Below, piece after piece: positions 5,740 to 62,912 of a DNA stretch of 64,000 nt (position 1 is its first letter; each line of letters opens with the position of its first letter). The stretch is taken from contig JAOSJO010000001.1 in NCBI GenBank assembly GCA_027494055.1, forward strand, positions 973,005-1,037,004, given 5' to 3'. This DNA comes from Anaerolineae bacterium. GTDB taxonomy: Bacteria; Chloroflexota; Anaerolineae; Aggregatilineales; JAFGMM01. Below the pieces are notes generated by a model. It had not been told where the DNA came from, searched no databases, and was given only the letters and a program-made list of their open reading frames with translations. Position numbers and translations under genes: made by a program.

Positions 5740-6816
5740 ATGACGCCCATGTCTGCGCGCGAGGGGGTGCTCGCGGCCCTCAACCGGCGCACGCCCGACC
5801 GCGTCCCCTTCGAGATCAGCTACGGGGCCTTCACCCCTGGCCTGATGCGCACCTTCCGCGCGCGCACCGGCTCCGACCAGGACCCGGCGGAGTACTTCAA
5901 CTTCGACGTGCGCCCGGTGCGCTATCGCCCTGTGCCCGCCGAGGGGCTGGCCGCCTACCATGCCGACCTCCCGCCGGGCACGGAACTCGACGAGTGGGGC
6001 GTGGCCCGCGCGCCGGGCGACTTCCAGCACCTGACGCGGCAGATCCACCCGTTGCAGAACGTCCAGAGCGCCGCCGAGATCGTCCGCTACCCCTTCCCCG
6101 ACTACACCCAGCCGGCGGCCTGCGCGCACCTCCCCGCCGAGACGGCGGCGCTTCACGCGCGCGGCCTCGCGGTCCTGGGAGAATTGTGGATCACGATTTT
6201 CGAGACCGCCTGGGCCATGCGCGGCATGACCGAACTCCTCACCGACTTCGTGCTGAATCCAGGCCTGGCCGCCGCCCTCCTCGACCGCATCACCGAAATC
6301 CGGCGCTGGCAGGCCCGGACCCTGGCGGCGGCGGACATCGATGTGCTGTGCCTGGGCGACGACATCGCCACGCAACGCGGCATGTTGGTGAGTCCGGCCC
6401 TGTGGCGCGACTGGCTCAAGCCGCGCCTCGCGTCGATCATCGCCGCCGCCAGGGCCGTGAAGCCCGACCTCATCATCTTCTACCACTCCGACGGCGACTG
6501 CCGGGCCGTCATTCCTGACCTGATCGAGATCGGCGTCACCGTGCTGAACCCGGTCCAGCCCGAATGCATGGACCCGGTCGCGCTCAAGAAGGCCTACGGC
6601 GACCGGCTGGCGTTCTGGGGCACCGTCGGCACCCAGACCACGATGCCCTTTGGCACGCCTGACACGATTCGCCAGGTGGTGCGCGAGCGCGTGCGCACGG
6701 TGGGCGCGGGCGGCGGGCTGCTTCTCGCGCCAACGCACATCCTGCAGCCGGATGTGCCCTGGGAGAACGTGCTGGCTTTTGTGGACGCGGTCCGCGAGGA
6801 CGGCGTCTATACCTGA
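5740..6816 (+). CDS. URO-D/MtaA-superfamily protein 1
   Basis: A 358-residue PF01208-family TIM barrel. The opening (REGVLAALNRRTPDRVPFE) and the PDLIEIGVTVLNPVQPECMD segment are diagnostic. At the position where MtaA/CmuA-type methyltransferases carry a zinc-binding His-x-Cys, this protein has His249-Ser-Asp (HSDGD); near the C-terminus a His (APTHILQP) lies nine residues before the ENV motif. It is not a haem-pathway HemE: context is sugar uptake and no other haem gene is near. It starts 7 bases after the LacI-type gene and precedes the binding-protein gene of an importer, so it belongs to the operon. Reaction unknown; a methyl- or carboxyl-group reaction on the imported substrate is only a guess. 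Confidence 0.85.
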   Translation: MTPMSAREGVLAALNRRTPDRVPFEISYGAFTPGLMRTFRARTGSDQDPAEYFNFDVRPVRYRPVPAEGLAAYHADLPPGTELDEWGVARAPGDFQHLTRQIHPLQNVQSAAEIVRYPFPDYTQPAACAHLPAETAALHARGLAVLGELWITIFETAWAMRGMTELLTDFVLNPGLAAALLDRITEIRRWQARTLAAADIDVLCLGDDIATQRGMLVSPALWRDWLKPRLASIIAAARAVKPDLIIFYHSDGDCRAVIPDLIEIGVTVLNPVQPECMDPVALKKAYGDRLAFWGTVGTQTTMPFGTPDTIRQVVRERVRTVGAGGGLLLAPTHILQPDVPWENVLAFVDAVREDGVYT

Positions 6817-6954
6817 TATGGAGGGCGGGAGTGCGGTGATGACGCCCTGGATTGCTGTCTGTAGCGTCACCGGAGAGGAGGGCAATGCTGCGGGATTGCG
6901 CGATACGGTTTTTCTGTCTGTGCGCCTTTGCGTTGACGATTGAGGAGGTTTCTC

Positions 6955-8199
6955 ATGATGAGCCGCGTCAAGCCCCTGATTAGCCTGTTGCTCCTGCTCG
7001 GCATGGTCTGCACGCTCGCGCCCGTGGGCGCGCAGGAGGAGGAGGTGACCATCTCCTACCTGGACTTCTGGACCGAGCTGGAAGAGTACATGCTGGAATC
7101 CATCGCCATGTTCGAGGAAGCGCACCCCGGCGTGACCGTCGAGCGCACCACCGCCCCGTGGAACGAGGCCGAGACGGTGCTCAAGACCAACATCGCCGGC
7201 GGCACGCCCTTCGACGTGGCGACCTACTGGCCGATGTACCTGAGCAGCTTCATGGAACTGAACGCCCTCAAGGACCTGACGCCTTACATCGAGGCCGATG
7301 ACGGCGCGTGGGCCGCCGACCTGGGGCCGCTCATGGAGCTGGGCAAGTACGACGACGGCTACTACGCCGTGCCGTTCAAGTCGATCTACGCCGTGCTGTA
7401 CTACAACAAAGAGGTCTTCGAGGAACTCGGCCTGGAAGAACCCACGACCATCGCCGAATTCGAAGCCGTGATGCAGACCATCCAGGACGAGACCGACATG
7501 GCGCCGCTGGTGGTCAAGGACGGGACGACCGGCTGGATCGTGCGCTGGATGTTCCCCGCCCTGGCCGATGAGGCCGGCGTCTGGGAGGCGTGGAAGAACG
7601 GCGAGATCCCCGCTGCTGGCGAGACCGAAGACATCTACCGCCGCCCTTACGAGATCGCCCAGCGCTGGTTCGACAACGGGTTCCTCTATGGCGGTGAGGG
7701 CGCGGCCGGCATCAGCCGCGACGAGGTGGAAATCGCGTTCGGCAACCGGGAAGTCGCCATCCTGGCCGAGACCAACTCCGAGGTGCAGCGCATCAAGGAC
7801 AACGCGGACTTTGAAGTCGGCGTCATGCTCTTCCCCTCGATTGTCGAGCCGCCCGCGTACTACCTCTTCGGCGGCGCCGATGGTTTCTTTGTGGGCGCTG
7901 ACGCCCCCGATGAGGCCGTCGAGTTCATCAAGTTCATGACCAGCCCCGAAATGCAGGCGTGGTGGCTGGACAACGCCGGCACGACGCCGATCAACCCGCA
8001 GGTCGAGATCGAGGACCCGGTTGTCGCCGGCTTCGTCGAGTGGAACCAGTACCTCTACCCGTTCGAGTTCTACAGCGTGTCGCCTGAGATTTCGCGCTAC
8101 ATCGACACCAGCGTGAGCGAACTCTGGACCGGTCGCAAGACGGTTGATGAGATCGTCGCCGACCTGGAGGAGCTGCGGCTGGAAGCCCTGGAAGGGTAG
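6955..8199 (+). CDS. Extracellular solute-binding protein of a sugar ABC importer
   Basis: A family 1 binding protein (MalE/UgpB-like) of about 414 residues with a Sec signal peptide (LISLLLLLGMVC...PVGAQ). It contains ITISYLDFW-type and ATYWPMYLSSF segments and the YAVPFKSIYAVLYYNKEVFEELGL stretch typical of the fold. ATG 6955 is chosen over an upstream in-frame TTG because GAGGAGG (6942-6948) lies 6 bases before it. The export path is likely extracytoplasmic, possibly lipid-free. It is followed after a strong hairpin by two permease genes; no ATPase gene accompanies them. Confidence 0.92.
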   Translation: MMSRVKPLISLLLLLGMVCTLAPVGAQEEEVTISYLDFWTELEEYMLESIAMFEEAHPGVTVERTTAPWNEAETVLKTNIAGGTPFDVATYWPMYLSSFMELNALKDLTPYIEADDGAWAADLGPLMELGKYDDGYYAVPFKSIYAVLYYNKEVFEELGLEEPTTIAEFEAVMQTIQDETDMAPLVVKDGTTGWIVRWMFPALADEAGVWEAWKNGEIPAAGETEDIYRRPYEIAQRWFDNGFLYGGEGAAGISRDEVEIAFGNREVAILAETNSEVQRIKDNADFEVGVMLFPSIVEPPAYYLFGGADGFFVGADAPDEAVEFIKFMTSPEMQAWWLDNAGTTPINPQVEIEDPVVAGFVEWNQYLYPFEFYSVSPEISRYIDTSVSELWTGRKTVDEIVADLEELRLEALEG

Positions 8200-10938: not shown

Positions 10939-13813
10939 ATGACGCCGCCGGACCGCTTCCCCGCTTCGATCCCGTACATCTGGCCGGCCGGCCTGGAGCC
11001 AGCGCCGCGCAACACGTTCGTCCAGTTCCGCAAGACGTTCGCGCTCCCGACCGCGCAGCGCAGCGAGGCGCGCATCTTCGCCGATAGCCGTTACTGGCTG
11101 TGGGTCAACGGCGCTTTTGTCGGGCGCGGGCCGGCGCGCTTCGCGCCCGACGCCCCGGAATACGACCATTACCCCGTGCAGTGGCAGGCCGGCCCCAACG
11201 TGATCGCCGTGCTCGTGCACCACTGGGGCGAGCCGAACGCGCGCTACATCCCCGCGCGCGGCGGCCTGATCTTCGACGCCGGCGTTGCGGGTGTCGCCAG
11301 CGACGCCACCTGGCGCGCGCGGGTCGCGCCGGCCTGGGAGCCGCTCAGCCCCCGGATCGGCTTCCAGCTTGCCTATACCGAAATCTACGACGCCCGCCGC
11401 GATGCCGGCGACTGGCTGCACGCTGCGTACGACGACGCCGCCTGGGCGGCGGCTGAGCCAGTCGCCGACCCGCCCTGGGGGCCGCTGGCGCGGCGCGCGC
11501 TGCCGCCTTTCACGCTGGGGGCGCGCCTCCCCGCCCGACCGGCGCGCCGGGGGCGCGTCCAGTGCGGGGAGGCGGTCTATGAACTGCACCTGTGGTTGGG
11601 GTCGGCGCAGGCCCCGCCGCGCGGCTACTGGGTGCATACCGCCGTCTACGCGCCGGCAGCCACGCGCGCCACGTTCCGCGCGCTCAGCAGCGCGCGCCTG
11701 CAGGCGTGGCTGGAGGGGGCGGCGGCGCCGCTCGCCGAGCCGGCGCTGCCGCCGCCGACGCTGCGCCAGCCCCTCGCCTATACCGTCACGCTGGACCTCT
11801 CCGCCGGCTGGCAGGACGTGGCGTTTGCGGTCGCGCCCAGCCCGGACGTGGCGACGCTCACGCTCATGGTCCCGGACCGACTCGGTCTGAAGCTCGCCAG
11901 CGACCGCGACCCGGACCACGACGGCCTGTTCTACACACGGGAGTTCGTCGGCGCGCTGCCGGCTGAGGCGCCCCACCACGCCCGGCGACGGCTGGCGCGC
12001 CCACCTGCCGGCGGCCACGCGCGGCAGCGTCGCCCGCATTCTGGACGCGGAACAACTGGCCGGCGACCAGGCGTGCGGCGATTACCCGCTCACCATGCAG
12101 GCCGGCGATTGGGCGCTGCTCGCGCTGGACCGGGAGGCGCTTGGGCACGTGGAACTCGACGTGGAAGCGCCCGCCGGCGTCACGGTCGATCTTGGCTACG
12201 CCGAGCACCTGACCGACGCCGAGGGCCGCGCCGGCTTCAGCGCGGGGCGCGTGATGGCGGTCAAACAGGCGACCTTCAGCGCGGACCGGTACGTCACCGC
12301 CCAGGGGCGGCAGCAGCACACGACGTTCGATGCGCGCGGGTTCCGGTTCGTGCACGTGGTGGCGCGCGGCCCGCTGACGCTGCACCGCCTTGGCGTGCGC
12401 GACGCCACCTACCCGGCGGCGCAGGTGGGGCGCTTCGCGTGCAGCGACGACCTGCTGACGCGCATCTGGGAGGTGGGCGCGCACACCGCCCGGCTCTGCA
12501 TGGAGGACGCCTTCACCGATTGTCCCTGGCGCGAGCGCGGGCAGTGGGTCGGCGACCTGAAGATCACCTACCTGACGAACCTGGCGTCGCTGGGCGATCA
12601 CCGGGTGATGGCGCGGGGCCTGCGCCAGTTCGCGCTCAGCCAGGGCGCGGACGGGCACGTCAACGGCCTGTTCCCCATCCCCTGGCAGGGCGGGCGCATC
12701 GCGGAGTACTCCCTGATCTGGTGCATGGCCGTGCGCGATTACGTACACTACTCCGGGGACGTGGCGACCGCGCACCGTCTGTGGCCGCACGTTGCGCGCG
12801 CGCTGGCGTTCTTCGAGACGCGGCTGACGCCGGAGGGGCTGACGTACACCCGCCAGCCCTGGGCTGACCTGATCCTGTCCGGGGCGGTGGCGGCGGAGGA
12901 CACCGGCGAGGTCGGCCCCCTGATCGACTGGGTGAAGACCGAGCGCGTGGGCGCGCTCACGACCGTGAACGCCTTCTTCTACCGCGCGCTCCGTGACGCG
13001 GCGGAGATCGGGTCGCAGGTCGGCGAGGGCGAGGCCGCAGCGCGCTACGGGGCGCTGGCCGACCGGGTGGCCGACGCGATCAACCGCCTCCTGTGGGACG
13101 CAGGCCGTGGCATCTACGCGGACGCGCGCCGCGATGGGGCGCTGTCGCCGCTCGCGACCGTCCACGGCAACAGCCTGCTGCTGGCCTTTGGCGTCGCGCC
13201 GCCGGCGCGCTGGCGCGCCATGTGCGACTTCCTGCGGGCAGAGTTGGCGCACCTCTGCCGGGACGACCCCTCCATCCCGACGTTCTTCCGGCAGGTCGTC
13301 AGCCCCTACTTCATGTACTACGTGCTGCGCGGGCTGTTCGCCATCGGGCAGGGGCGCTACGCGCTCGACCAGATACGCGCGAAGTGGGGCCACATGCTCC
13401 AGACCGGGACGACGACCTTCTGGGAGAACTTCGACCCGGATACCAGCCTGTGTCACGGGTGGGCGTCCAGCCCCACCTGGTTCCTGAGCCGGGAGGTGCT
13501 CGGCGTCACGCCAGCGGCCGGCGCGGGTCCGGTGCGCGTTGCGCCGCGCACGTGCGGCCTAGCGTGGGCCAGCGGGACCATACCCACACCCGGCGGCCCG
13601 GTTACGGTGGAGTGGCGGGACCAGGGCGAGGCGCTTTCCCTGCGCGTCGCGCTCCCGGCGGGGCGGGGCGTCGCCATCGAGAGCGAGAAGCCGCTGGCCG
13701 ATGTTGCCGTCAACGGCGCGGCGATCATCACGCCCGACGGGGCGCTGCCCGATGTGGAAGTCGCGCCGGACCGCAGGCGCGCGACCTACCCGCACCCTCA
13801 CGGCCCGGCATGA
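10939..13813 (+). CDS. Alpha-L-rhamnosidase, GH78-like (frameshifted)
   Basis: About 957 residues. The N-terminal part holds jelly-roll modules (ADSRYWLWVNGAFVGRGPAR, typical of rhamnosidase N-domains). The C-terminal (alpha/alpha)6 barrel has the GH78 catalytic-site signature in FTDCPWRERGQWVGD and the TLWENFDP-like FWENFDPDTSLCHGW near the end. No signal peptide is seen, so it acts on imported rhamnosides in the cytoplasm. The frame breaks at the C-run 11971-11974; deleting one C joins EAPTTPGDGWRAHL in frame. It is the last gene of the LacI-type operon and points to rhamnose-containing oligosaccharides as the imported substrate. Confidence 0.9.
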
Positions 13814-14114: not shown

Positions 14115-15224
14115 GTGAACGCAAAAGAGCGTGTCCATGCCGCTCTGCGGCGCGAGCCGGTTGACCGCGTGCCGATCTACATGTGGTTCCAGCCCGACAC
14201 CGCCAGGCGGCTGGGCGACCTGCTGGAGATTCCGCCGGCGCGCGTCGCGGAGGCGATGGGCAACGACGTGTGCCAGACGTGGGTGAGCAACAACCACGCC
14301 ATGGAGGGCATCGTCCACGAACACGAGGGCGAGGGCCACGTCGATGTCTGGGGCATCGAGTGGGTGAAGGTCGGCGCGTTCAACCAGGTCTGCGGCTTCC
14401 CGTTGCAGCACGCGGACGAAGACGCGATCCTGCGCTACGCGTACCCCTATGACCAGGTCGAGACGCTCATGCGCAACATGGACCCCGTCGTTGCGCTCGC
14501 CGACGAGTACTTCATCGGCTGCGACGTGTCGCCGTGCCTGTTCGAGATGGTCTGGCGGTTGCGCGGCCTGGGAGAGACGCTCCTCGACATGGCCGCGAAC
14601 CCCAGGCTCGCCGCGCACATGTTCGAGCGCGCGGCGGAATTCTGCCTGCACCTGTCGGAGATCGCCTGCGCGCGCTTCCCGCTCGACTGGCTCTGGACCG
14701 GCGACGACATCGCCAGCCAGCGCGGAATGATGATGAGTCCGGACTACTGGCGCGAGGCGATCCGCCCGCACCTCGCGCGCATCTTCGAGGTTGGCAAGGC
14801 GCACGGGCTGTGGGTGGCCTATCACTGCTGCGGCTCGCTGCGGCCCATCATCCCCGACCTGATCGAGATGGGGCTGGACGTCCTCAATCCCATCCAGGCG
14901 AACACGCCCGGCATGGACGCGCTCGAACTGAAGCGCGAGTTCGGCGCGGACCTGGCCTTCATGGGTGGGGTGGATACCCAGGGGCTTCTGCCCACCGGGA
15001 CGGTGGACGAGGTGCGGCGCGAGACGGCGCGGCTGGTCGAGGCCATGACCGCCGACGGCGGCGGCTACATCCTTGCCGCCTCGCACACCGTGCCGCCCGA
15101 AGCGCCGCTTGAGAACATCTTCGCGATGTACGCGGAGGCGGGCGTCAGCCGGGAGGCGATCTTCGACCGCGCCGCCGACATCCGCCGCGCCCTCAACGCC
15201 GGCGCGCAGGAGTCCGCGCGTTGA
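14115..15224 (+). CDS. URO-D/MtaA-superfamily protein 2
   Basis: About 369 residues of a PF01208 barrel, opening NAKERVHAALRREPVDRVPIYMW. The metal-site equivalent is His237-Cys-Cys239 (YHCCGS), i.e. the His-x-Cys of MtaA-type methyltransferases; the C-terminal position nine residues before ENI is His (AASHTVPP). GTG 14115 is chosen because AAGGAGGT (14099-14106) lies 8 bases upstream; upstream in-frame codons lack similarity to the family. It stands alone between the rhamnosidase operon and a convergent DeoR gene. Function unknown; a corrinoid- or sugar-linked methyl transfer is only a family-based possibility. Confidence 0.85.
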   Translation: MNAKERVHAALRREPVDRVPIYMWFQPDTARRLGDLLEIPPARVAEAMGNDVCQTWVSNNHAMEGIVHEHEGEGHVDVWGIEWVKVGAFNQVCGFPLQHADEDAILRYAYPYDQVETLMRNMDPVVALADEYFIGCDVSPCLFEMVWRLRGLGETLLDMAANPRLAAHMFERAAEFCLHLSEIACARFPLDWLWTGDDIASQRGMMMSPDYWREAIRPHLARIFEVGKAHGLWVAYHCCGSLRPIIPDLIEMGLDVLNPIQANTPGMDALELKREFGADLAFMGGVDTQGLLPTGTVDEVRRETARLVEAMTADGGGYILAASHTVPPEAPLENIFAMYAEAGVSREAIFDRAADIRRALNAGAQESAR

Positions 15225-16387: not shown

Positions 16388-17183
16388 ATGAATACAGGCA
16401 AGCTCGTCCGCATGAACCGGCTTTTCGCCCATCCCTCCGGGCGTTTGTGTTCGGTCGCGGTCGATCATTTCATCGGCTACGGGCACGGCCTCCCCGACGG
16501 GCTGCGCGACATCGCGGCGACGCTGGAGGCGGTTGTCGCCGGCGCTCCAGACGCCGTGACCATGCACAAGGGCGTCGCGGCGTCGGCCTGGCAGCGATTT
16601 GCCGGGCGCATCCCTATGATCCTGCAGAGCGTCATCGGGCGACCGGACGACAGCGCCTTCGAGTTGATCGCGACGCCTGAAGACGCGATCTTTCTGGGCG
16701 CGGACGCCTTCGCCGTGGCCGCTTTTTGTGCGCGGCGCGACCGAGGGCGCGTACTTGAAAATCGTCGCGGACTGCGTGCGTGAGGCGGCGCGCTATGACC
16801 TGCCGGTGATCTGCCACATCTACCCCCGCACGCGCGATTTGCAGATTTCGTTCACCCCGGAGGACATCGCCTGGGCCGTGCGGTGCGCCGTCGAGGTGGG
16901 CGCGGACGTGGTCAAGACGCCCTATTGCGGCAACCCCTCGGCGTTCGCTCAGATCGTCGCCGAGTGTCCGGTGCCGCTCGTCGCCGCCGGCGGCCCGCAG
17001 AGCGCGACGCTCGCCGATGCGCTGGCGATGATGGCCGCGGTCGTCCAGAGTGGGGCGCGCGGCGCGACCGTGGGGCGGAACGTGTGGGGCTTCGGCAACA
17101 TCACGGCGGCGGTGCATGCCTTCAAGGCCGTGATCCATGATGCGCGAAGCCCACAGGAAGCCTTGAGGGCCGCCAACCTATGA
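16388..17183 (+). CDS. Class I aldolase of the DeoC/LacD/FbaB group (frameshifted)
   Basis: About 264 residues after removing one T from the run 16723-16727, which restores AVAAFVRGATEGAYLK. Features of the PF01791 aldolases are visible: AVDHFIGYG near the start (acidic site), DAVTMHKG, and a Schiff-base lysine candidate in ADVVKTPYCGN, followed by the phosphate-binding stretch LVAAGGPQS and GATVGRNVWGF. It probably cleaves a phosphorylated ketose to dihydroxyacetone phosphate or a related ketol plus an aldehyde. The stop overlaps the start of a PfkB kinase by 4 bases, so both are translated together; the kinase probably makes the aldolase substrate. Divergent DeoR regulator. Confidence 0.85.
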
Positions 17184-18100
17184 CGCTGTGGGATGTGCTG
17201 GGCCTGGGCGCGGTCGCGGTGGACGACCTGTTCTATGTGGACCACCACCCCGCGCCCGACACGAAGGTCCCGCTGCGTGACTTCAAACGGCAGGGCGGCG
17301 GGCTGGCCGGGACCGCGCTCGTGGCGGCGGCGCGCCTCGGCGCGAAGGCCGCTTACTGCGGCGTGCTCGGCGACGACGAGCTTTCGCAGTTCAGCCTGCG
17401 GGAGTTCGAGCGCGAGGGCGTGGACTGCACGCCGGTCCTGCGGCGGCCAGAGGCGCGCGCCGTGTACTCGGCCATCATCGTCGATCAGAGCACGGGGCAG
17501 CGCTGCATTCTCTATTCTCACGCCGGCGTCATGGCCCCGCTGCCGGAACAGATTACGCCGGCGCTCGTCACCGCGTGCCGGGTGCTCTTCGTGGACAGCA
17601 CCGTGGCCGTGCTGGGCGCGCGCGCTGCCGAGATTGCCCGCCGCCACAACATCCCTGTGGTCGGCGATGTTGAGACGCATGCCGGGCCAGACCTGCCCGA
17701 CCTGCTGCGCCAGATCGACCACCTCATCCTGGGCGACAGCGCGGCGCAACAGTTGACGGGCGAAGCCGACCCCGCCGCCGCCGCGCAGGCGCTCTCCCGG
17801 CGCAATGGGGCGTGGTGCGTGGTGACGGTCGGCGACCGTGGCTGCTGGTACGCTGCGCGCGGCGAGCCGGCGCGTCACGTGCCGGCGCTCCGCGTCGAGG
17901 CTGTGGACACGACCGGCTGCGGCGACGTGTTCCACGGCGCTTACGCGGCGGCGCTCGCCCAGGGCGAGCACGTGAGCCGGGCAGTGCAGGTGGCGACGGT
18001 CGCGGCCGGCATCAAGGCCACGCGCCACGGGGGCCGGGCGGGCATCCCCGACCGCGCCACGGTGGCGCGCTACATGAGGGAGCACGGCTTCGATGCCTGA
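17180..18100 (+). CDS. PfkB family carbohydrate kinase
   Basis: A complete 306-residue ribokinase-type enzyme. The N-terminal GGLAGTALVAAARLGAK motif and the C-terminal anion hole with catalytic Asp (DTTGCGDVFHGAYAAAL) are well preserved. The ATG overlaps the aldolase stop (ATGA), indicating coupled translation. Together they resemble a ketose kinase plus aldolase module. The substrate is not deducible from the sequence. Confidence 0.9.
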   Translation: MTLWDVLGLGAVAVDDLFYVDHHPAPDTKVPLRDFKRQGGGLAGTALVAAARLGAKAAYCGVLGDDELSQFSLREFEREGVDCTPVLRRPEARAVYSAIIVDQSTGQRCILYSHAGVMAPLPEQITPALVTACRVLFVDSTVAVLGARAAEIARRHNIPVVGDVETHAGPDLPDLLRQIDHLILGDSAAQQLTGEADPAAAAQALSRRNGAWCVVTVGDRGCWYAARGEPARHVPALRVEAVDTTGCGDVFHGAYAAALAQGEHVSRAVQVATVAAGIKATRHGGRAGIPDRATVARYMREHGFDA

Positions 18101-27516: not shown

Positions 27517-28236
27517 GTGGGCGCACTTGAGGGTCAGGTTGCTGTCATCACCGGGGCGGGGCGCGGGATGGGCGCGGCCATTGCGTCGGCCTTCGCCGGC
27601 GCAGGGGCCAGGGTCGGCCTGATTGCCCGCACCGCCTCGGACTTACAGGTCGTGGCCGGGGCGATTGCTGAGGCCGGCGGGGTCGCCGAGCCGGCGGTAG
27701 CCGATGTCACGCAGCGCGGGCAGGTCCAGGCGGCGGTCGCCCACCTGCGCGCCGCGCTCGGCCCCGTGGATATCCTGGTCAACAGCGCCGGCGTCGCGAC
27801 CACCAACACCGTCGTCGAGATGCCGGAAGCGGACTGGGACCGCCAGTTCGACACCAACGTCAAGGCGGTCATGCTGTGCAGCCAGGCCGTGCTCCCGGAC
27901 ATGATCGCGCGCCGGCGCGGCCTGATTATCAACATCGGGTCGATGGCCGGCCTGGTGCCGGGCGGCCCCGGCGGCACGGCCTACGTCGCCTCGAAATGGG
28001 CGCTGGTCGGCCTGAGCCGCTGCCTGTCGCTCGAACTGAAACCGCACAACGTCCGGGTGACGCTGCTCAACCCCGGCACGACTGACACGCCCTTCCGCCC
28101 GGACGAGTTCGGCAAACACCCCGAATGGATGCAGGCGAGCGATGTCGCTGAGGCGGCGCTGTTCGTCGCCACGATGCGCGAGCCGGTCTCGATCCACGAG
28201 CTTGCCTTCTCAGTCACAAGGGATGGGTGGGGCTAG
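27517..28236 (+). CDS. Short-chain dehydrogenase/reductase
   Basis: A classical 239-residue SDR starting at GTG 27517. The dinucleotide-binding TGAGRGMG, the NSAG motif, catalytic Ser (NIGSMAG) and Tyr-x3-Lys (YVASK) are present. In this operon it could oxidise the imported sugar at C1 or a secondary alcohol of a sugar acid, feeding the kinase and aldolase encoded just downstream. Cofactor preference cannot be told safely. 128 non-coding bases separate it from the kinase. Confidence 0.9.
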   Translation: MGALEGQVAVITGAGRGMGAAIASAFAGAGARVGLIARTASDLQVVAGAIAEAGGVAEPAVADVTQRGQVQAAVAHLRAALGPVDILVNSAGVATTNTVVEMPEADWDRQFDTNVKAVMLCSQAVLPDMIARRRGLIINIGSMAGLVPGGPGGTAYVASKWALVGLSRCLSLELKPHNVRVTLLNPGTTDTPFRPDEFGKHPEWMQASDVAEAALFVATMREPVSIHELAFSVTRDGWG

Positions 28237-28364
28237 ATAGGGACCTGGCCGGGATTCGGGCCAGACGCGCCCCTGAGGAGCCGGGCGCAAGCAGCGGGGC
28301 GCGCCGGGGCGCGAGCCAGGCACGCCGCGAAGGGTTCATATTGCCGATCAACGGGAGACTGTCC

Positions 28365-29516: not shown

Positions 29517-29534
29517 CAACCAGGGGGATTACTC

Positions 29535-35916: not shown

Positions 35917-35931
35917 GGCGTGGGGGATGTG

Positions 35932-38552: not shown

Positions 38553-39626
38553 ATGAAACAAGACGTACTCGACGCGCTGTCGGGCCGCTTCCCGAAGCAG
38601 ATACCGAGCAAGGAAACGCTCGACCATCCCGGCATCATCAACCATGTCGCCGGCTTCGATGTCTACGAGGACACGCCGCGCGCCTTCGACATCGCGTGGC
38701 GGAAGCTCGGCATCGACATTCACGTGGCGCTGCCCAAAGCGAACGCGGCGCGGCCCCAGGTACCCGGCGGCACCTGGGAGGCGGACGGCTGGCGCTACAG
38801 CGACTACGGCGTCTACCCGACACGGATGCGGGTCGAGTACGCGCCTGGGGTCAGCAAAGATGACGACGACTGGGTTTTCAAGTACGACGTCTCGGCCCAC
38901 GACTTCGACCGCGAGGCGCGCATCGCCGAGCTACGGCAGGAAAACGCCGCGTTCCGCACGCACTTCGGTGACCTGGCGGTGATGTATCACCTGTACTACA
39001 CCACCCTGTTCATGTGGCCGGTGGAGACGTTCGGCTGGGAGCCGTTCATGATGGCGGCGGCCTCCGACCCCGGAGCGGTTTGACGCGGCGCTCTGGGAGC
39101 CGTGGGCGCACATCAGCCGCAAGCACTTCGAGACGCTCGCCGCGATGGATGAAGAGGTGATCTTCTGCCACGACGACATCGCCATGACGCCGGGGCCGGT
39201 GTTCCATCCGGGCTTCTACGAGAAGTACATCTTCTCGCGCTACGAGTGGATCATGGAGCCGGCGGTGCGGGCGGGCAAGAAGATCGTCTTCGTGTCCGAC
39301 GGCAACATCGATGCGTTTCTGGAGCGGCTGCTTGACTTCCCCATCGCCGGCATCATGTTCGAGAACCCGGCGACGCCGTTCGCGCGGGTCCTGGAGACGT
39401 GGGGAAGGCCGGGCGCGGCTTCATCGGCGGCATCTCGACGCGGGTGCTCACCCACGGCACGCCGGAGGCGGTGCGCGCGCACACCAGGGAGGTGATCGAG
39501 CAGGGGCGCGAATACCCCGGCTTCATCATCAGCGCGTGCGGGCAGCTCCCCGGCAGCATCCCGCTGGCGAACATCCTGGCCTACTTCGAAACCCGCGATG
39601 CCATGGGCATCCCGGCTGAGCTGTGA
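38553..39626 (+). CDS. URO-D-like protein 6, lacking the conserved His (two frameshifts)
   Basis: About 357 residues, a diverged URO-D-fold protein. Recognisable parts are FDIAWRKLGIDIHVALP, VIFCHDDIAMTPGPVF and the C-terminal GFIGGISTRVLTHGTPEAV. Extra C at 39068-39071 and missing G at 39401-39404. Where relatives have His-x-Cys or His-x-Asp it has Val-Ser-Asp (FVSDGN), so the putative metal site is changed; a Cys (SACGQLPG) sits near the C-terminus. 15 bases after the aldo/keto reductase. The family assignment is slightly weaker than for the other copies. Confidence 0.72.
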
Positions 39627-44763: not shown

Positions 44764-45894
44764 ATGGAAAAAGTCAGGACGGCGGTGGTAGGCTGTGGGA
44801 AGGTGGGGCACACGCATGCGCAGGCGCTCGCGACGCTGCCCGAATCGGCGTTTGTCGCGGTCTGCGACACGGACCTGGCCCGCGCGCAGGCCTTCGCCGG
44901 GCAGTACGGCGTCGCCGCCTTTGGCGACGTGGGCGAGATGGTGACACAGGCCGGGGTGCAGGCGGTGACGGTCTGCACGCCGCACCCGGTCCACGCCACG
45001 CCCGCGATCCAGGCCGCCGAGGCCGGGGCGCACGTCATTGTCGAGAAGCCGATGACGTCCACCCTCAAGGACTGCGACACGATGCTCGCCGCCGCCGCGA
45101 AGTCGGGCGTCAAGCTTGGCGTCATCAGCCAGCGGCGGCTGTATGAGCCGGTGCAGCGCGTCCGGGCGGCCATCGACGCCGGGAAGATCGGCAATCCCAT
45201 CCTCGGCGTGGTCACTCTGCTCGGCTGGCGCGACGAGGCCTACTATCGCGCCGACCCCTGGCGCGGCAAGTGGGACGCGGAGGGCGGCGGCGTGCTGGTC
45301 AACCAGGCCCCGCACCAGCTCGACCTGATCCAGTGGTTCATGGGGCCGATTGACGCGGTGTTCGCCTACTGGGACAACCTCAACCACCCCTACATCGAGG
45401 TCGAAGACACGGCGGTCGTGGCCCTGCGCTTCAAGAGCGGGGCGCTCGGCTCGATCCTGTTGAGCAACTCACAGAAGCCCGGCCTCTACGGGAAGGTGCA
45501 CATCCACGGCGCGAACGGCGCGTCGGTGGGCGTCCAGACCGACGGCGGCTCGATGTTCATCTCAGGCATGTCGTCGGCGGCGGAGCCGCCAATCAACGAC
45601 CTGTGGACCGTGCCGGGCGAGGAGCACCTGCTGGGCCAGTGGCAGGAGGAGGACAGGGCGACGTTTGAGCGGGTTGACCCGACGACGCACTATCACGCCC
45701 TGCAAATTCAGGACTTCCTGCGCGCCATCCTCGAAGACCGCGATCCGATGATTACGGGCGTCGAGGGGCGCAAGACCGTCGAGCTGTTCACCGCCATCTA
45801 CCGCGCGCAGCGCGATGGCCGGCCGGTACGGTTCCCCGTCGATAGCGAACGCGGCTCGGAGGCGATGGACGGCCGGCTTTCGCCACGCCGGTAG
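44764..45894 (+). CDS. Gfo/Idh/MocA family oxidoreductase, copy 1
   Basis: A complete 376-residue NAD(P)-dependent sugar dehydrogenase. N-terminal Rossmann motif VVGCGKVGHTHAQAL, the EKPMTST motif with catalytic Lys, and the VNQAPHQLDLIQWF helix with candidate catalytic His residues. Good ribosome site (AAGGAG) upstream. Lies between an MDR dehydrogenase and a nitrilase; likely acts on an inositol-, hexose- or sugar-acid-type substrate. Confidence 0.92.
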   Translation: MEKVRTAVVGCGKVGHTHAQALATLPESAFVAVCDTDLARAQAFAGQYGVAAFGDVGEMVTQAGVQAVTVCTPHPVHATPAIQAAEAGAHVIVEKPMTSTLKDCDTMLAAAAKSGVKLGVISQRRLYEPVQRVRAAIDAGKIGNPILGVVTLLGWRDEAYYRADPWRGKWDAEGGGVLVNQAPHQLDLIQWFMGPIDAVFAYWDNLNHPYIEVEDTAVVALRFKSGALGSILLSNSQKPGLYGKVHIHGANGASVGVQTDGGSMFISGMSSAAEPPINDLWTVPGEEHLLGQWQEEDRATFERVDPTTHYHALQIQDFLRAILEDRDPMITGVEGRKTVELFTAIYRAQRDGRPVRFPVDSERGSEAMDGRLSPRR

Positions 45895-45942
45895 GTGCGC
45901 CCCTGCAACGGCAGAGTCTTGGGAGTACGAGAGAGGATTGAG

Positions 45943-46884
45943 ATGCCAGAAGAGAAGCATTCGCAGGCCGGGCGGCCTGTGCGTGTGGCGAGCATCAGCT
46001 TTGCCAACGGAAAGACCCTGGCCGAGATCGCCGGCGTGCTCGACTGGGTTGCGGCGGCCGGCGTCGATCTCATCGCCTTGCCCGAAACCTGGCTGGGCCA
46101 GAACGATCACATCCCCGAATCGCTTGACGGGCCGACCATCATGACGATGGCGGCGCTGGCGAAGGAGCACCGGACCTACATTGTCTGCCCAATCGACCGG
46201 CAGGACGGCGCGCGGCGGCTCAACTCGTCGGTGCTGCTTGACCGGAACGGCGCGGTTGTCGGTGCCTATGACAAGGTCTACCCCTACTGGTCGGAGTTCG
46301 ATGTCACGCCGTCGGTCAAAGTCGGCGAGGAAGCGCCGGTATACCAGACCGACTTTGGCCGCGTGGGGCTGGCGATCTGCTTCGACGTGAACTTTCCGGA
46401 GGTCTGGAAGCGGCTTGCCGACCAGGGGGCCGAGCTTGTGGTGTGGTCCAGCGCCTACTCCGCCGGTACGTCGCTCCAGGCGCACGCCATCAACCACCAC
46501 TACTACATTGTGACCTCGACACAAGAGGTGGACTGCATCGCCTACGACATCAACGGGCAGGAAATCCTCTACGAAAAGGGCGACGACACCAACGTCAGCC
46601 GGCTCACGCTGGACCTGGATCGCGGCATCTACCACGAGAATTTCAACATCGACAAGCGCGACCGGCTCCTGGCCGAGCGCGGCGACGACGTGGCGCAGGA
46701 ACAGTGGATGCGGCGCGAGCAGTGGTTCGTGCTGAAGGCGCTCCGGCCTGGCGTGAGTGCGCGCGCGCTGGCGCGGGAATACGGCCTGGAAGAGCTGCGC
46801 GACTATCTCGACCGCAGCCGCCGGGACATCGACCGGATGCGCGGCTGGGCGTTTGCCGAGAAGGCGCTGGAGCGGATCCCGTGA
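45943..46884 (+). CDS. Nitrilase superfamily carbon-nitrogen hydrolase
   Basis: 313 residues with the full catalytic triad: Glu48 (LPETW), Lys110 (YDKVYPYW) and Cys145 (AICFDVNFPE). Members hydrolyse nitriles, amides or N-carbamoyl compounds. ATG 45943 follows GAGAGGA; in-frame codons back to 45895 are probably untranslated. Its stop overlaps the next gene (GTGA), a second Gfo/Idh/MocA enzyme, indicating coupling of amide hydrolysis with sugar oxidation. Confidence 0.9.
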   Translation: MPEEKHSQAGRPVRVASISFANGKTLAEIAGVLDWVAAAGVDLIALPETWLGQNDHIPESLDGPTIMTMAALAKEHRTYIVCPIDRQDGARRLNSSVLLDRNGAVVGAYDKVYPYWSEFDVTPSVKVGEEAPVYQTDFGRVGLAICFDVNFPEVWKRLADQGAELVVWSSAYSAGTSLQAHAINHHYYIVTSTQEVDCIAYDINGQEILYEKGDDTNVSRLTLDLDRGIYHENFNIDKRDRLLAERGDDVAQEQWMRREQWFVLKALRPGVSARALAREYGLEELRDYLDRSRRDIDRMRGWAFAEKALERIP

Positions 46885-47867
46885 GCTTCAAGGTCTGTGT
46901 GATCGGTTGCGGCTACATGGCGATGCACTATCACGGCCCCGCGTATGTCCGGTACGCCGCGGCGCATTCTGACGTTGTGCTGGCGGCCTGCTGCGACATC
47001 GACGAAGCGAAGGCGGCTGCGTTCCGCGCGCGGTTCGGCTTTGCCCGGCACGACACCGACATGGCGGCGATGCTGGACCGCGAGCAGCCGGACGCGGTGT
47101 GCCTCATCGCGCCGGAGGCGCTGACGTGCGCGCTCGCGTGCCAGGTGCTGGAGATGGGCTACCCACTGTTGATGGAAAAGCCGCCCGGCAGGACGGTGGA
47201 GGAGATCGACCGCATGATCGCCGCCGCCGCCGCCAGCGGCGCGCCCAACCAGGTGGCGTTCAACCGGCGCTACACGCCGCTGGTCTGCGCGCTGAAGCGC
47301 CGGCTCGACGGGGCGGCGCTCCAGCACGTGCGCTACGACTTCACGCGCGTCGGGCGCGCCGACGCCGACTTCTCGCTGACCGCGATACACGGGGTTGACA
47401 CCGCCCGCTTCCTGGCCGGCAGCGACTACTGCCACATCGACTTCCATTACCAGCCGTTCCCCGAACTCGGCCCGACAGCGGCCAACATCTTCATGGATTG
47501 CACATTCGCGTCGGGGGCGACCGCGCACCTGGACTTCTGCCCTCTCTCTGGCGTGGTCGTCGAGCGCGCGACGGTGTACGCGCGCGATCACACGTACTTC
47601 CTGAACCTCCCTATCTGGGACGCTTTCGACGCGCCGGGCCGGCTCCAACATCTGGAGAGGGGCGCGCTCCGGCTCGACGTGACCGGCCTGGGCGTGCCCG
47701 GCGGCGGCGGCGCGCCCTTCGTGAGCAACGGGTTCTACGCCGAAAACGCCGCCTTCTTCGACGCGCTGCGCGCGGGCCAGCGGCCCGCCGGCGACCTGAG
47801 AAGCGCGCGGCAGTCGGTCGCCGTGGCTGAGTGCATCCGGGAGCGGCGGGAAGCGTACTGCGCCTGA
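46881..47867 (+). CDS. Gfo/Idh/MocA family oxidoreductase, copy 2
   Basis: 328 residues starting at GTG 46881. Rossmann motif VIGCGYMAMHYHG, the MEKPPGRTVEEID motif with the conserved Lys, and NQVAFNRRYTP, as in myo-inositol and glucose-fructose type oxidoreductases. Frame intact. Coupled to the nitrilase upstream and 22 bases before a TIM-barrel isomerase, a common partner of this family. Confidence 0.88.
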   Translation: MSFKVCVIGCGYMAMHYHGPAYVRYAAAHSDVVLAACCDIDEAKAAAFRARFGFARHDTDMAAMLDREQPDAVCLIAPEALTCALACQVLEMGYPLLMEKPPGRTVEEIDRMIAAAAASGAPNQVAFNRRYTPLVCALKRRLDGAALQHVRYDFTRVGRADADFSLTAIHGVDTARFLAGSDYCHIDFHYQPFPELGPTAANIFMDCTFASGATAHLDFCPLSGVVVERATVYARDHTYFLNLPIWDAFDAPGRLQHLERGALRLDVTGLGVPGGGGAPFVSNGFYAENAAFFDALRAGQRPAGDLRSARQSVAVAECIRERREAYCA

Positions 47868-47889
47868 GCGGTCGCAGGGCAGGCACACC

Positions 47890-48681
47890 ATGAGTCAAGT
47901 GACGTTCACCGTTTTCACCAAGCCCTGGCCGGCGCTGCCGATCCCTGTACTGGGGGAGATGGTGCGCGGCTGGGGCTTCGACGGCGTGGAACTCCCGGTG
48001 CGGCCCGGCTTCCAGGTCGAGCCGGAGCGCGTCGCGCGCGACCTGCCCCTGGCGGTCAACGCGCTTGCAGCGCTCGGCCTCAAGGTCGCCAGCGTAGCCG
48101 GCCCCGCCGACGCGCAGACCGTCGCCGCGTGCGCCGCGTGCGGCGTCCCGGTCATCCGCACGATGGTCCCGATCGGCGACGGCGGCTACATGGCGACGGT
48201 GGCGCAGACGCAGGCGGCGTTCGATGCGCTCGTGCCCCTGCTGGACCGGCACGGCGTCACCATCGGGGTGCAGAACCACTGCGACCGTTTCGTGTGCAAC
48301 GCGATGGGGCTGTTGCACCTGATCGGCAAGTACGACCCCAGGCACGTTGCCGCCGTCTGGGACGTGGCGCACAACGCGCTCAACGGCGAGGACCCGGAGA
48401 TGGCGCTTGACATCATCGGGCCACGCCTGTGCATGGTCAACCTGAAGAACGCCTTCTGGCGGCGCACGACCGGCCCGGAGGCCGAAGACGTGCAATGGCG
48501 GCCCTACTGGACCACCGGCCCGCAGGGGTTGGCGTCGTGGCCGCGCGCGGCGGCGGAACTCAAGCGGCGGCGCTACGCCGGCGTGATCTGCCTGCCGGCG
48601 GAGTACACCGACGAAGCCTCGGTGAACCGCCTGGTCGCGCAGGATATCGCGTATGTAAAAGCCCTGTTCGCGGGCGACTGA
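47890..48681 (+). CDS. Sugar phosphate isomerase/epimerase-like TIM barrel (AP endonuclease 2 family)
   Basis: 263 residues of PF01261 type. Opening TVFTKPWPALPIPVLGEMVRGWGFDGVELP; probable metal-site residues in GVQNHCDRF, AVWDVAHNALNGE and the late LPAEYTDE segment. Related proteins isomerise or epimerise keto sugars or inosose derivatives and are often paired with Gfo/Idh/MocA enzymes, as here. Substrate unknown. Confidence 0.85.
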   Translation: MSQVTFTVFTKPWPALPIPVLGEMVRGWGFDGVELPVRPGFQVEPERVARDLPLAVNALAALGLKVASVAGPADAQTVAACAACGVPVIRTMVPIGDGGYMATVAQTQAAFDALVPLLDRHGVTIGVQNHCDRFVCNAMGLLHLIGKYDPRHVAAVWDVAHNALNGEDPEMALDIIGPRLCMVNLKNAFWRRTTGPEAEDVQWRPYWTTGPQGLASWPRAAAELKRRRYAGVICLPAEYTDEASVNRLVAQDIAYVKALFAGD

Positions 48682-55538: not shown

Positions 55539-56852
55539 GTGACGACACCATCCAACCCAACCACCGGGGATGCTTCCTGGTTCGTGCATGATCGTTTCGG
55601 CCTGTTCATCCATTGGGGCCTCTACTCACTGGCGTCGCGCGGCGAGTGGGTCAAATACCACGCGCGGATGACGGACGCGGACTATCAGCGATACTTCGAC
55701 CATTTCGAACCCGACCTCTACGACCCGACCGTCTGGGCCAGCGAGGCCAGGGACGCCGGGATGAAGTACGCCGTCGTCACCACCAAGCACCACGACGGCT
55801 TCTGCCTGTGGGACACGGCGCTCAGCGATTACAAGGCGACGAACACGCCGTGGGGCCGGGACGTGCTGCGGCCCATGGTCGAGGCGTTCCGCGCGCAGGG
55901 CCTCAAGATCGGCTTCTACCACTCGCTGGTGGACTGGCATCACCCCCAGTTCCCGCTCGACGGGCTGTACCCGCGCCACGACGACCTGGCGTTCCGCGCG
56001 CGCGAGCAGGGCCGCGACATCGCCCTGTACCGCCAGTACCTGCACGGCCAGGTGCGCGAGCTGCTCACCGGGTTCGGCGAAGTCAACATCCTGTGGTTTG
56101 ACTTCTCGTATTCCGAGCGGGACTATGGCTGGGCCAGGGGCAAGGGACGGGACGCGTGGGGCGGCGACGACCTGACGGCGATGGCGCGCGCGCTGCAACC
56201 CGGCATCCTCATCAATGACCGGCTTGATGTCGGTTGGAGCGACGCCGGCGACTTCTTCACCCCGCAGCAGTATCAACTGCCCATACGGCTCACTTGGGAC
56301 GGCGAACCGGTCGTGTGGGAGCTTTGCCACCCGCTCAGGAAGACCTGGGGCTACGTCCGCGACGACCTGGACTGGATTTCGGTGGACATGCTGGTCCGCC
56401 TGCTGGTCGATACCGTCTCGAAGGGCGGGAACCTGCTCCTCAACGTGGGGCCGACCCCGCGCGGCGCGTTCGACCGTCACTCGATTGAGCGGCTGCGCGG
56501 CATCGGCGCGTGGATGCGACGGCACAGCCGGGCGATCTACGGCTGCACCGCCAGCGCGTTTACGCCGCCGCCCGACTGCCGCTATACTCAGAACGGGCAG
56601 CGCCTCTACCTGCACCTTTTCGCCTGGCCGATTGGGCACGTCCACCTGCCGGGCCTGGCGAACAGGGTAGAATATGCGCAGTTGCTCAGCGACGGCTCGG
56701 AGATCAAGACGATGGTCCTGGATCCGGAGGGGCCGGCGGAGCGCAAGGCGTTCGTCATCATGCCCGACATGCCGCCGGACACGCTGACGCTGGAGCTGCC
56801 GCTGCAGAAGCCCGATGCGGCGGTGCCTGTGATTGAACTCTTCTTGAAGTGA
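55539..56852 (+). CDS. Alpha-L-fucosidase, GH29
   Basis: A 437-residue GH29 enzyme, intact, starting at GTG 55539 (AAGGA upstream). The family hallmarks are visible: FIHWGLYS, GMKYAVVTTKHHDGFCLWDT, GFYHSLVDWHHP and the catalytic nucleophile Asp188 in ILWFDFSY. The C-terminal part forms a beta-sandwich. No signal peptide, so it probably cleaves imported fucosides in the cytoplasm. It shares its upstream region, with the LacI-type palindrome, with the divergent URO-D gene, and is followed by a LacI gene. Confidence 0.95.
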   Translation: MTTPSNPTTGDASWFVHDRFGLFIHWGLYSLASRGEWVKYHARMTDADYQRYFDHFEPDLYDPTVWASEARDAGMKYAVVTTKHHDGFCLWDTALSDYKATNTPWGRDVLRPMVEAFRAQGLKIGFYHSLVDWHHPQFPLDGLYPRHDDLAFRAREQGRDIALYRQYLHGQVRELLTGFGEVNILWFDFSYSERDYGWARGKGRDAWGGDDLTAMARALQPGILINDRLDVGWSDAGDFFTPQQYQLPIRLTWDGEPVVWELCHPLRKTWGYVRDDLDWISVDMLVRLLVDTVSKGGNLLLNVGPTPRGAFDRHSIERLRGIGAWMRRHSRAIYGCTASAFTPPPDCRYTQNGQRLYLHLFAWPIGHVHLPGLANRVEYAQLLSDGSEIKTMVLDPEGPAERKAFVIMPDMPPDTLTLELPLQKPDAAVPVIELFLK

Positions 56853-61779: not shown

Positions 61780-61793
61780 GCACGGACGTCCTT

Positions 61794-62912
61794 TCACGAA
61801 GTTGCGGCGGCCTCGTCGAACGCGGCGATGATGTTCTCCGGTGGCGTGCCCGGCTGCACCGAGTTCGCCGGGGCCATGATGTAGCGCTCCGGGCCGAGGG
61901 CGTCCAGGTAGCGGCGCACGTGCCGCCGCACGTCATCGGGCGCGCCGTCGGGCAGCACCGTCTGCACGTCCAACCCGCCGTGGAAGACCAGCCGGTCCCC
62001 GTATCGCCGGCGGAGCGCTTCCGGGTCCATGTGGCCGGGCAGCGGCTGGATGGGATTGAGCACCTGGACGCCGATCTCGATCAGGTCGTCGATCAGGCCC
62101 ATGATTGCCCCACACGAGTGGTAGAAGATCCGGGCGTTGGTGCGCGCGCGGAGCGCTTCATTCAGCGCCGCGTGGCGGGGCTTGACCAGATCGCGGTACA
62201 TCTGCGGCGAGATGAGCAGGCCATCCTGCCCGCCGAGGTCGTCGGCGGTTTCCACCATCTCGACGTAATCGCCCACCGCGTCGAGGAAGTGCTCCCACAT
62301 GCCGACGTGGACTGCCAGCACGCGGTCGAGCAGGGCCTCGGCGAAATCGCGGTCGGCGGCCATGTCCAGCATGAAACGCGCCATGCCGCGCAGGTTCCAG
62401 CAGTCCTGGAACACGCCCGAACCGATGTGGCCCGCCGCGAGCGCGTAGTCGCTCGTTTCGTAGAGCCGGCGCGCCTCCTCCGCCAGCCCCGCAACGCGAC
62501 CGGGGTCGTGCGGGTCGGGCCACGGGAAGGCCTCCAGGTCGTCGAGGGTCGCCTCCGCCAGCGGGTGCCCGATGCGCTCGTTGTACGGCCCGGTTGGCCG
62601 GTAGCCGACGCCCCACTCATCGCGGAAGGAACCGTCCGCCGCCACGGCCAGCGTGAACGACGCCGCCGGGCGCAGGTACACGCGGCGGAACGGCACGTCG
62701 AAACGCTGCAGGACGCGCTCGTCGAACGCGCCGATGGTGTTGAGCAGCGTGACGGTCTCGCCGTCGAGTGCGTCGCCGTAGCCCAGGTGCGCTTTCAGCG
62801 CCAGGTAGGCCGGCGTGCTCAGCGAGGCGACCCGTCCCCCCAGGTCAACGACAGGCCTGTCGGGGCGCTCACCCGCGAACACGGCGCGCACCCGGTCACG
62901 CGGTGATAGCAT
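61794..62912 (-). CDS. URO-D/MtaA-superfamily protein 11
   Basis: 372 residues, intact. SPRDRVRAVFAGERPDRPVVDLGGRVASL at the start; DDLGGQDGLLISPQMYRDLVKP; His265-Ser-Cys267 (YHSCGA) followed by DDLIEIGVQVLNPIQPLPGHMD; the variable ligand position holds Asn (APANSVQPGTPPEN). Its start is 49 bases downstream of the stop of the four-carbon-acid-sugar kinase gene, probably in the same transcript. Confidence 0.87.
   Translation of the reverse strand: MLSPRDRVRAVFAGERPDRPVVDLGGRVASLSTPAYLALKAHLGYGDALDGETVTLLNTIGAFDERVLQRFDVPFRRVYLRPAASFTLAVAADGSFRDEWGVGYRPTGPYNERIGHPLAEATLDDLEAFPWPDPHDPGRVAGLAEEARRLYETSDYALAAGHIGSGVFQDCWNLRGMARFMLDMAADRDFAEALLDRVLAVHVGMWEHFLDAVGDYVEMVETADDLGGQDGLLISPQMYRDLVKPRHAALNEALRARTNARIFYHSCGAIMGLIDDLIEIGVQVLNPIQPLPGHMDPEALRRRYGDRLVFHGGLDVQTVLPDGAPDDVRRHVRRYLDALGPERYIMAPANSVQPGTPPENIIAAFDEAAATS

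Follow-up and report, generated by a model that had tools for sequence, protein, structure and literature searches.

Divergent UroD-fold proteins among the sugar genes of an Anaerolineae bacterium as candidate corrinoid-dependent demethylases

INTRODUCTION

The uroporphyrinogen decarboxylase (UroD) superfamily is described, in the available portion of PMC13222342, as holding O-demethylases and dehalogenases along with clades of unknown substrate. According to the same portion, its members MtvB, OdmB, VdmB, MtoB and CdmB act on methoxyaromatics and haloalkanes as substrate-side methyltransferases (methyltransferase I, MTI) that operate with a corrinoid protein, a second methyltransferase (MTII) and an activator, with many paralogues per genome. 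The S-methyl branch of the superfamily, including MtaA and MtbA (SCMT) and the mlp clusters, is treated in the preprint PMC10418091, and insertion into cmuC blocks growth on chloromethane, the function of CmuC being unknown (PMC3621897; both as given in the parts available). Here we describe eleven UroD-fold coding sequences that lie among sugar genes in a window of 64,000 nucleotides from an Anaerolineae bacterium (G000:C1:973005-1037004; G+C 0.678), where G000 denotes the source genome (5.71 Mb, 28 contigs), G001 a genome of the same family, C a contig of G000 and L a numbered locus.

With confidence barely above even, we favour the view that most of the window copies are MTI-type methyltransferases of corrinoid-dependent demethylases for methylated sugars or sugar acids. 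The role so proposed is like that of MtvB and its counterparts, and many paralogues per genome are a further likeness; the window instead has sugar genes near its copies and no corrinoid gene. A corrinoid protein, MTII and activator encoded together are absent from the window and accompany relatives of the same protein group at L204 and L200. CdmB, taken from its PDB match, scores only 31.7 bits against a profile of the window family. MtaA and MtbA share with the window copies the superfamily, the fold and an aligned His-x-Cys site, and one copy (50798, named by its start position, as are the others) keeps the full His-Cys-Cys set. Most window copies, however, swap the second Cys for His, Asn or others, some also the first for Asp, and lie on another side of the tree and in sugar operons. 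HemE likewise shares the fold (Z 26-30) and the Pfam family, but the window copies lack its RQAGRY motif, lie elsewhere in the tree and have no haem gene among the scanned neighbours. CmuC and six window copies belong to one supported set; the substrate of the CmuC/CmuA system is a halomethane, and CmuA stands on the other tree side with a His-Cys-Cys site.

RESULTS

Eleven positions encode divergent UroD-fold proteins

About 67 genes were called in the window, UroD copies included. The initial annotation had listed eleven PF01208-type proteins, and a UroD-fold coding sequence was found at all eleven positions, eight intact and three frame-broken (32342, 34838 and 38553). When Pfam PF01208 was run on each of them with its gathering cut-off of 23.9 bits, nine of the eleven passed (38553 through its tail), 32342 lay at the cut-off and 34838 under it, so that the list stands with three broken frames, one borderline score and one score below the cut-off. 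Scores of the intact copies ranged from 29.6 to 211.9 bits.

5740..6816, + strand: UroD-family protein, HSDG...H type; PF01208 77.5 bits; AlphaFold2 predicted local distance difference test (pLDDT) 93.4
14115..15224, + strand: UroD-family protein, HCCG...H type; PF01208 80.6 bits
18150..19169, + strand: UroD-family protein, HCCG...H type, downstream of a PfkB kinase; PF01208 101.9 bits; AlphaFold2 pLDDT 94.3
32342..33344, + strand: UroD-family protein, frame-broken; PF01208 borderline at 23.9 bits (22.8 in the genome scan)
34820..36275 (34838), + strand: UroD-family protein over several frames; PF01208 16.7 bits, below the cut-off
38553..39626, + strand: UroD-family protein over three frames, found with the window-member profile; tail 39399-39623 with PF01208 27.1 bits
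39648..40709, + strand: UroD-family protein, HSDG...H type, long branch; PF01208 62.1 bits
50798..51808, + strand: UroD-family protein with a His-Cys-Cys (S-methyltransferase type) site; PF01208 211.9 bits
54165..55475, - strand: UroD-family protein, very divergent (HSCG), placement unsure, long branch; PF01208 29.6 bits
60802..61797, - strand: UroD-family protein, HSCG; PF01208 73.1 bits; 79% identical orthologue in G001
61794..62912, - strand: UroD-family protein, HSCG; PF01208 78.8 bits

A profile built from eight window members scored 38.5 and 49.9 bits on two frames of 34838. In 32342, where the second frame spans 32931-33344, one break falls at the codons of the HSDG motif; the closest G001 relative known for this copy (L092) is 45% identical. 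The motifs said to be shared by all copies exist as a consensus (RER..., PDR and IPDLIExGxDxLNP) and not copy by copy: by pattern, the N-terminal motif is present in four of nine proteins and the late motif in two of nine.

The nine window proteins compared are 15-38% identical in pairs. This bears out the earlier description of copies that differ strongly and rules out recent tandem duplication; the sequences support a set of old, divergent paralogues. The copy number is far above ordinary. G000 holds 42 PF01208 stretches, counting its own HemE (C12:786115-787150, split over two frames), against 24 in G001 and 0-16 in 39 further relatives. Among 249 sampled genomes of the class, a loose first look in which about eight candidates were scored per genome gave up to 107 UroD candidates per genome.

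Three broken copies out of eleven, and further window genes that read as broken, would fit an expansion partly made of decaying relics. We regard this as improbable: the HemE match of the genome is split too, which suggests assembly indels, none of the 24 UroD matches in G001 contains an internal stop, and eight window copies are open. Indel errors of the assembly are thus the likelier cause of the breaks. By reading, frames are split in 4688-5732, 10118-10931, 16388-17183, 30292-31096 and 32342-33344, as well as in 34820-36275, 38553-39626 and the HemE stretch G000:C12:786115-787150. The ten frame-break intervals examined contain no run of more than five equal bases.

The window copies are not placed within HemE

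A tree of the window proteins with HemE, MtaA and CmuA was computed on 98 rows; it is unrooted, so that its divisions are sides and not clades. HemE, MtaA, CmuA and the mlp-cluster proteins lie on one side together with window copies 50798 and 54165. The other seven of the nine window rows fall on the opposite side, in a 58-row set (support 96/94) that contains neither HemE nor MtaA, and six of these seven belong to a 41-row set (98/95) together with CmuC (L138, so called for a match equal to that of the annotated cmuC in KT950740). Although 50798 and 54165 lie on HemE's side, they form no supported pair or small set with HemE in this tree or in a second, quick tree, from which 21 of the 98 rows (oddities and near-duplicates) were dropped and to which 19 rows enriched in corrinoid-linked proteins were added. 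The two trees agree in outline, and neither yields the placement within HemE that the initial annotation had named as refuting its view. Copy 14115 paired with CmuC in the 98-row tree (97/87), a pairing lost in the quick tree.

Consistent with this placement, the RQAGRY motif is present in none of the nine window proteins and is found in a HemE of the same order (L100). When 45 aligned members, chosen from 77, were compared with NCBIfam, 42 matched mtaA_cmuA, at E values up to 0.001, and 10 matched hemE (best E 4.7e-19). For copy 18150, the hemE model TIGR01464 gave 34.8 bits against a curated cut-off of 302.95, and the mtaA_cmuA model TIGR01463 gave 75.3 bits against 235. No haem family was detected among the 26 non-UroD window proteins scanned, in line with the initial annotation, and the HemE of this genome is encoded separately on C12. 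A haem-related role as HemE paralogues would draw on the common fold and Pfam family; the tree, the missing RQAGRY and the NCBIfam scores led us to reject it, and we give it next to no weight.

Variation of the predicted metal site

The site alignment comprised 82 rows, four HemE and one MtaA among them. His occupies the first ligand position in 70 of the 82 rows; at the next, Cys stands in 43 rows and Asp in 28. In a profile alignment, the ligand columns coincide with the HICG and PGC stretches of MtaA, which we take to be its zinc ligands. The available part of PMC10418091 assigns His-Cys-Cys to the S-methyltransferases of the superfamily, whereas in its O-methyltransferases one or both Cys are replaced by carboxylates or non-coordinating residues.

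Four of the seven window copies opposite HemE in the tree (5740, 14115, 18150 and 39648) carry a variant, DD...HxC/D...H, of the zinc-site motif seen in methyltransferases. Full His-Cys-Cys is confined to 50798 among the nine window proteins, 32342 being unreadable there owing to its frame break. By the His-Cys-Cys rule, 50798 is predicted to be of the S-methyltransferase type with a corresponding metal site, and it may act on the acceptor side. It is 59-65% identical to proteins of Phycisphaerae, Lentisphaerae and Armatimonadetes and matches MtaA (4ay7) at E 4e-24.

Members of the same group lie beside corrinoid genes in relatives

In relatives, proteins of the window's group share clusters with corrinoid proteins and the activator RACo. 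At L204 the gene order is corrinoid protein, PF02574, DUF1638, three UroD, RACo and two UroD (by Pfam, the fourth UroD being without a Pfam match); one of these UroD proteins is 52% identical to window copy 5740 and another groups with window copy 32342. L200 comprises UroD, corrinoid protein, an AcsE-like protein and RACo, and L196 has five UroD with a corrinoid protein. In the quick tree, eight of the 11 corrinoid-linked rows stand on the side of the seven window rows.

Two loci join corrinoid and sugar genes. L149 carries FGGY kinase, isomerase, UroD, corrinoid protein, galactokinase, Gfo/Idh and GH4, and another UroD lies upstream of these; its PF02607 match is the only one of that genome, and it has three sister loci. 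L201/L191 carries a LacI-type regulator, UroD, corrinoid protein, Gfo/Idh, a short-chain dehydrogenase/reductase (SDR), an alcohol dehydrogenase, isomerase, UroD and ATP-binding cassette (ABC) genes; its first UroD has no Pfam match and lies outside the main group. Further linked loci, all with UroD outside the main group, are L103 of the window's order (on one strand a solute-binding protein, two permeases, UroD, RACo and PF02574), L117 of G001 (UroD, UroD, corrinoid protein, Pterin_bind, RACo and DUF1638) and L143 on a Peptoclostridium plasmid (a consecutive run of sugar ABC genes, DUF4091, a cobalamin-dependent protein and a UroD of the His-Cys-Cys type).

Across 396 genomes, UroD lay within 1.5 kb of a corrinoid gene in 11 of the 30 best loci, from six of 13 families, against a chance expectation, based on 16 genomes, of about 4% per locus and 9% at most. 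The corrinoid query was itself taken from a locus with UroD linkage; leaving out its family (f30) gives 7/26. RACo was present in 50 of 51 genomes with at least 20 UroD candidates and in 61 of 123 with at most five (249 genomes of the class), and UroD number correlated by rank with RACo (0.62) and with PF02607 (0.46).

G000 itself has two PF02607 matches, nine PF02310 matches and two RACo loci. On contig C26, RACo lies about 2 kb from a PF02607/PF02310 protein. The other RACo belongs to L133 (C12:471000-490999), where the gene set reads by eye as a carbon monoxide dehydrogenase/acetyl-CoA synthase cluster, that is, as an acetogen-like methyl sink. Further PF02310 matches are on C23, C25 and C28.

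Two stretches of the window's order, L206:18-11492 and L208:1886-14060, have a corrinoid gene among sugar genes and no UroD in the stretch; the neighbours include FGGY kinase, Gfo/Idh and isomerase-like genes, ABC permeases and RACo. In UroD-rich genomes of family f43, a corrinoid gene lies beside one that reads as RuvB, and neither UroD nor MttB is labelled next to it (L144-L148, L151, L177, L180, L187, L188 and L195); six f43 corrinoid loci were for this reason set aside as support.

Sugar genes surround the UroD copies in the window and in relatives

The window features other than UroD are mostly of sugar type:

6955..8199, + strand: sugar-type solute-binding protein (SBP_bac_1, 104.7 bits)
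12095..13813, + strand: alpha-L-rhamnosidase-like glycosidase (Pfam)
16388..18100, + strand: DeoC/LacD-type aldolase (frame-broken, match just under the cut-off) and PfkB sugar kinase (Pfam)
27568..30182, + strand: SDR, PfkB kinase and KDPG/KHG aldolase, a sugar-acid module (Pfam)
31119..32276, + strand: mandelate-racemase/enolase-superfamily protein (MR_MLE), probably a sugar-acid dehydratase
33455..34795, + strand: amidohydrolase between two UroD genes (PF04909)
35932..36741, + strand: DUF34/NIF3 protein overlapping the end of the UroD stretch that begins at 34820 (PF01784)
44764..48681, + strand: two Gfo/Idh/MocA dehydrogenases, a carbon-nitrogen hydrolase and a xylose-isomerase-like protein (Pfam)
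55584..56852, + strand: alpha-L-fucosidase (PF01120, 264 bits)
62962..63999, - strand: protein of the four-carbon acid sugar kinase type (SBD_N/NBD_C; Pfam), on the strand of both adjacent UroD genes

A second solute-binding protein and the permeases were identified by similarity only. By reading, a second NIF3-similar start lies at 36738; for DUF34/NIF3 proteins, the title of one paper suggests a metal chaperone or insertase.

Beyond the window, 23 of 189 UroD neighbours in G000 matched sugar-operon proteins of the window, compared with 5 of 136 genes at control points (Fisher p=0.008), and at least two sugar matches were found at six of 22 non-window UroD loci and at none of 17 controls. The statement that all copies sit with sugar genes is therefore fair for the window, while genome-wide the association exists but extends to part of the loci only. 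When Pfam families were tallied for 140 neighbours and 140 controls, BPD_transp_1 (ABC permeases) appeared 11 times against four; SBP_bac_1 occurred five times among the neighbours and is not in the 25 control families listed.

The relatives' sugar loci were chosen for strong or several UroD matches. In G001, the 79% identical orthologue of 60802 follows two ABC permeases (L214). In four genomes (L038, L102, L108 and L119), an orthologous UroD of about 384 aa is the direct neighbour of a GH38-like alpha-mannosidase, and a fifth (L104) has this orthologue and an alpha-mannosidase within one cluster; the mannosidase was tested with Pfam in L119 only, and the L038 copy is frame-broken and assigned by eye. 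O-methyl-mannose is a candidate substrate of this UroD. In L113:5268-14664, two UroD genes occur with UxaC, UxaE, KduI and an oligogalacturonate-lyase-type protein, a uronate operon context pointing to methylated uronic acids. In L106 and L114, three UroD genes are accompanied by an ABC ATPase and a gene of the galactokinase type, and the Chloroflexota plasmid plas-ZRK has one UroD among ROK, Gfo/Idh and isomerase genes. The proposed tie to sugar catabolism is thus strengthened, as the sugar link recurs in other genomes.

These neighbourhoods also bear on a reading, in our judgement quite unlikely, in which the copies are corrinoid methyltransferases for small or aromatic methyl compounds (methoxyaromatics, methylamines or halomethanes) and the sugar neighbours reflect chance or shared regulation. 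The methyltransferases of the superfamily in the available part of PMC13222342 do act on methoxyaromatics and haloalkanes, many copies are solitary, the clusters L204, L196 and L200 show no sugar genes, and MttB was matched by two of 140 neighbours (in G000, MttB-family genes adjoin a UroD gene at L052:11268-13958, as placed by eye). Against such a reading stand the conserved sugar context, with the orthologue of 60802 after ABC permeases, the mannosidase pair in four genomes and the UroD pair with UxaC, UxaE and KduI, as well as the neighbour excess over controls and the union of both gene kinds at L149 and L201.

Weighing a corrinoid-dependent role

Several observations weigh against the methyltransferase reading. 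The nearest corrinoid-type match to any PF01208 match of G000 is about 13 kb away, on C23, and within 10 kb there is no PF02607, PF02310 or RACo match. Nine of the 28 genomes with at least 40 UroD candidates have at most one PF02607 match, and the median PF02607 count drops from 4 (6-39 candidates) to 2 (at least 40); despite the rank correlation, the idea that corrinoid genes scale with UroD genes was not upheld. RACo co-occurrence is confounded because the Wood-Ljungdahl pathway also uses RACo. At 20 loci picked at PF02607 matches, some from UroD-rich but PF02607-poor genomes and the rest from corrinoid-rich ones, MttB lay beside the corrinoid gene in eight and UroD in two. Nine of 19 loci refetched from a later set, mostly picked at corrinoid matches with and without UroD neighbours, lacked UroD over the stretch read. 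As noted, L103, L143 and L117 encode UroD proteins outside the window's main tree group, that of L143 being His-Cys-Cys.

Sites, trees and folds add to this side. In copies 60802, 61794 and 54165, HSCG is retained but the third ligand is Q, N or S; deep nodes are weak, and 54165 and 39648 are long branches. The AlphaFold2 models are confident, and fold matches to MtaA and HemE are tied (Z 27.8 and 27.4 for 18150; 28.9 and 29.6 for 5740), so that the modelled fold cannot decide between the two; CdmB is absent among the fold matches listed, which is uninformative. As to sugar context, 16 of the 22 non-window UroD loci lack two or more sugar neighbours, and the notion that all copies of the genome lie in sugar operons was rejected; some of the 16 (L037, L039 and L055) hold other sugar-like genes by eye. 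Gfo/Idh (3) and ROK (2) were listed only among control genes.

The scarcity of corrinoid genes also speaks for the main rival explanation. In it, the UroD barrel with its His/Asp/Cys metal site works free of corrinoid and decarboxylates, isomerises or retro-aldol cleaves sugars or sugar acids, like related metal-dependent barrels. The empty 10-kb surroundings in G000 and the nine PF02607-poor genomes fit this account, as do L105, L106, L113 and L114, in which sugar genes accompany two or three UroD genes and nothing within four genes is labelled as corrinoid or RACo; lower-ranked Foldseek matches include D-psicose 3-epimerases. We nonetheless judge it unlikely: the same protein group occurs inside corrinoid clusters, with eight of 11 corrinoid-linked rows on the side of the seven window rows, CmuC belongs to the group, and the methyltransferase models are matched by 42 of 45 members against 10 for hemE. 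The initial annotation had offered demethylation or decarboxylation as examples. We favour the former, and the latter less, because the operons that contain members of the same group in relatives also encode corrinoid proteins, RACo and methyl-acceptor enzymes.

DISCUSSION

The fold, the site motif, the tree and, in relatives, the linkage of this protein group with both corrinoid and sugar genes are the observations on which the methyltransferase reading is built; from them we infer the reaction, the metal, a corrinoid protein shared within G000, and the substrates. Based on these data, we propose a plausible route. ABC transporters would import methylated sugars or sugar acids, which glycosidases would free. 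The UroD protein would then hold the substrate oxygen on its metal site (DD...HxC/D...H) and pass the methyl group to Co(I) of a corrinoid protein common to many UroD proteins, kept active by RACo. A second enzyme would hand the methyl group to tetrahydrofolate or homocysteine, and the demethylated sugar would enter the neighbouring kinase/aldolase pathway. Judging by the uronate, mannose and galactose contexts, the substrates may include 4-O-methylglucuronate and O-methyl hexoses, with O-methyl-mannose, O-methyl-galactose and similar compounds as candidates. Each copy may, as initially suggested, serve one sub-pathway.

A broader and more tentative proposal extends this scheme to the whole class: tens of UroD MTIs per genome, each devoted to one O-methyl sugar or uronate within its own uptake and catabolic operon, might share one or two corrinoid proteins and RACo and feed the Wood-Ljungdahl pathway or methionine. 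Sugars bearing methyl ethers occur widely in the glycans of plants, algae and microbes, and the class consists mostly of uncultured bacteria. If the proposal is true, such a system would open, in anoxic habitats, a previously unseen route for the carbon of methylated polysaccharides. It would give a function to a very large protein expansion, and many genes labelled 'uroporphyrinogen decarboxylase family' could be better named.

The searched full-text literature, judged by titles and the starts of abstracts and covering subscription journals thinly, contained no description of a sugar role for UroD-family proteins and none of the anaerobic removal of sugar methyl ethers. The novelty once claimed for a sugar-catabolic use holds to that extent, but annotated operons of this kind are already in public plasmid records. 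The Peptoclostridium acidaminophilum plasmid EAL2_808p and the Chloroflexota plasmid plas-ZRK each have, in the stretch read, one UroD inside a sugar uptake or catabolic cluster, annotated and undiscussed in the searched literature; that of EAL2_808p is of the His-Cys-Cys type with a corrinoid protein in the row. If the demethylase reading is correct, a methyl source for acetogenic metabolism could be tested in the cultured P. acidaminophilum DSM 3953. A third plasmid, the unannotated OY725838.1 of Subdoligranulum variabile (L141), has seven UroD genes on 48 kb, together with a sugar ABC transporter and ROK-like, rhamnosidase-like and RACo-like genes.

DUF1638, PF02574 or both recur beside corrinoid and RACo genes at L204, L103 and L117 (by Pfam) and at L208 and L211 (by eye), and DUF1638 may be an unstudied part of corrinoid systems.

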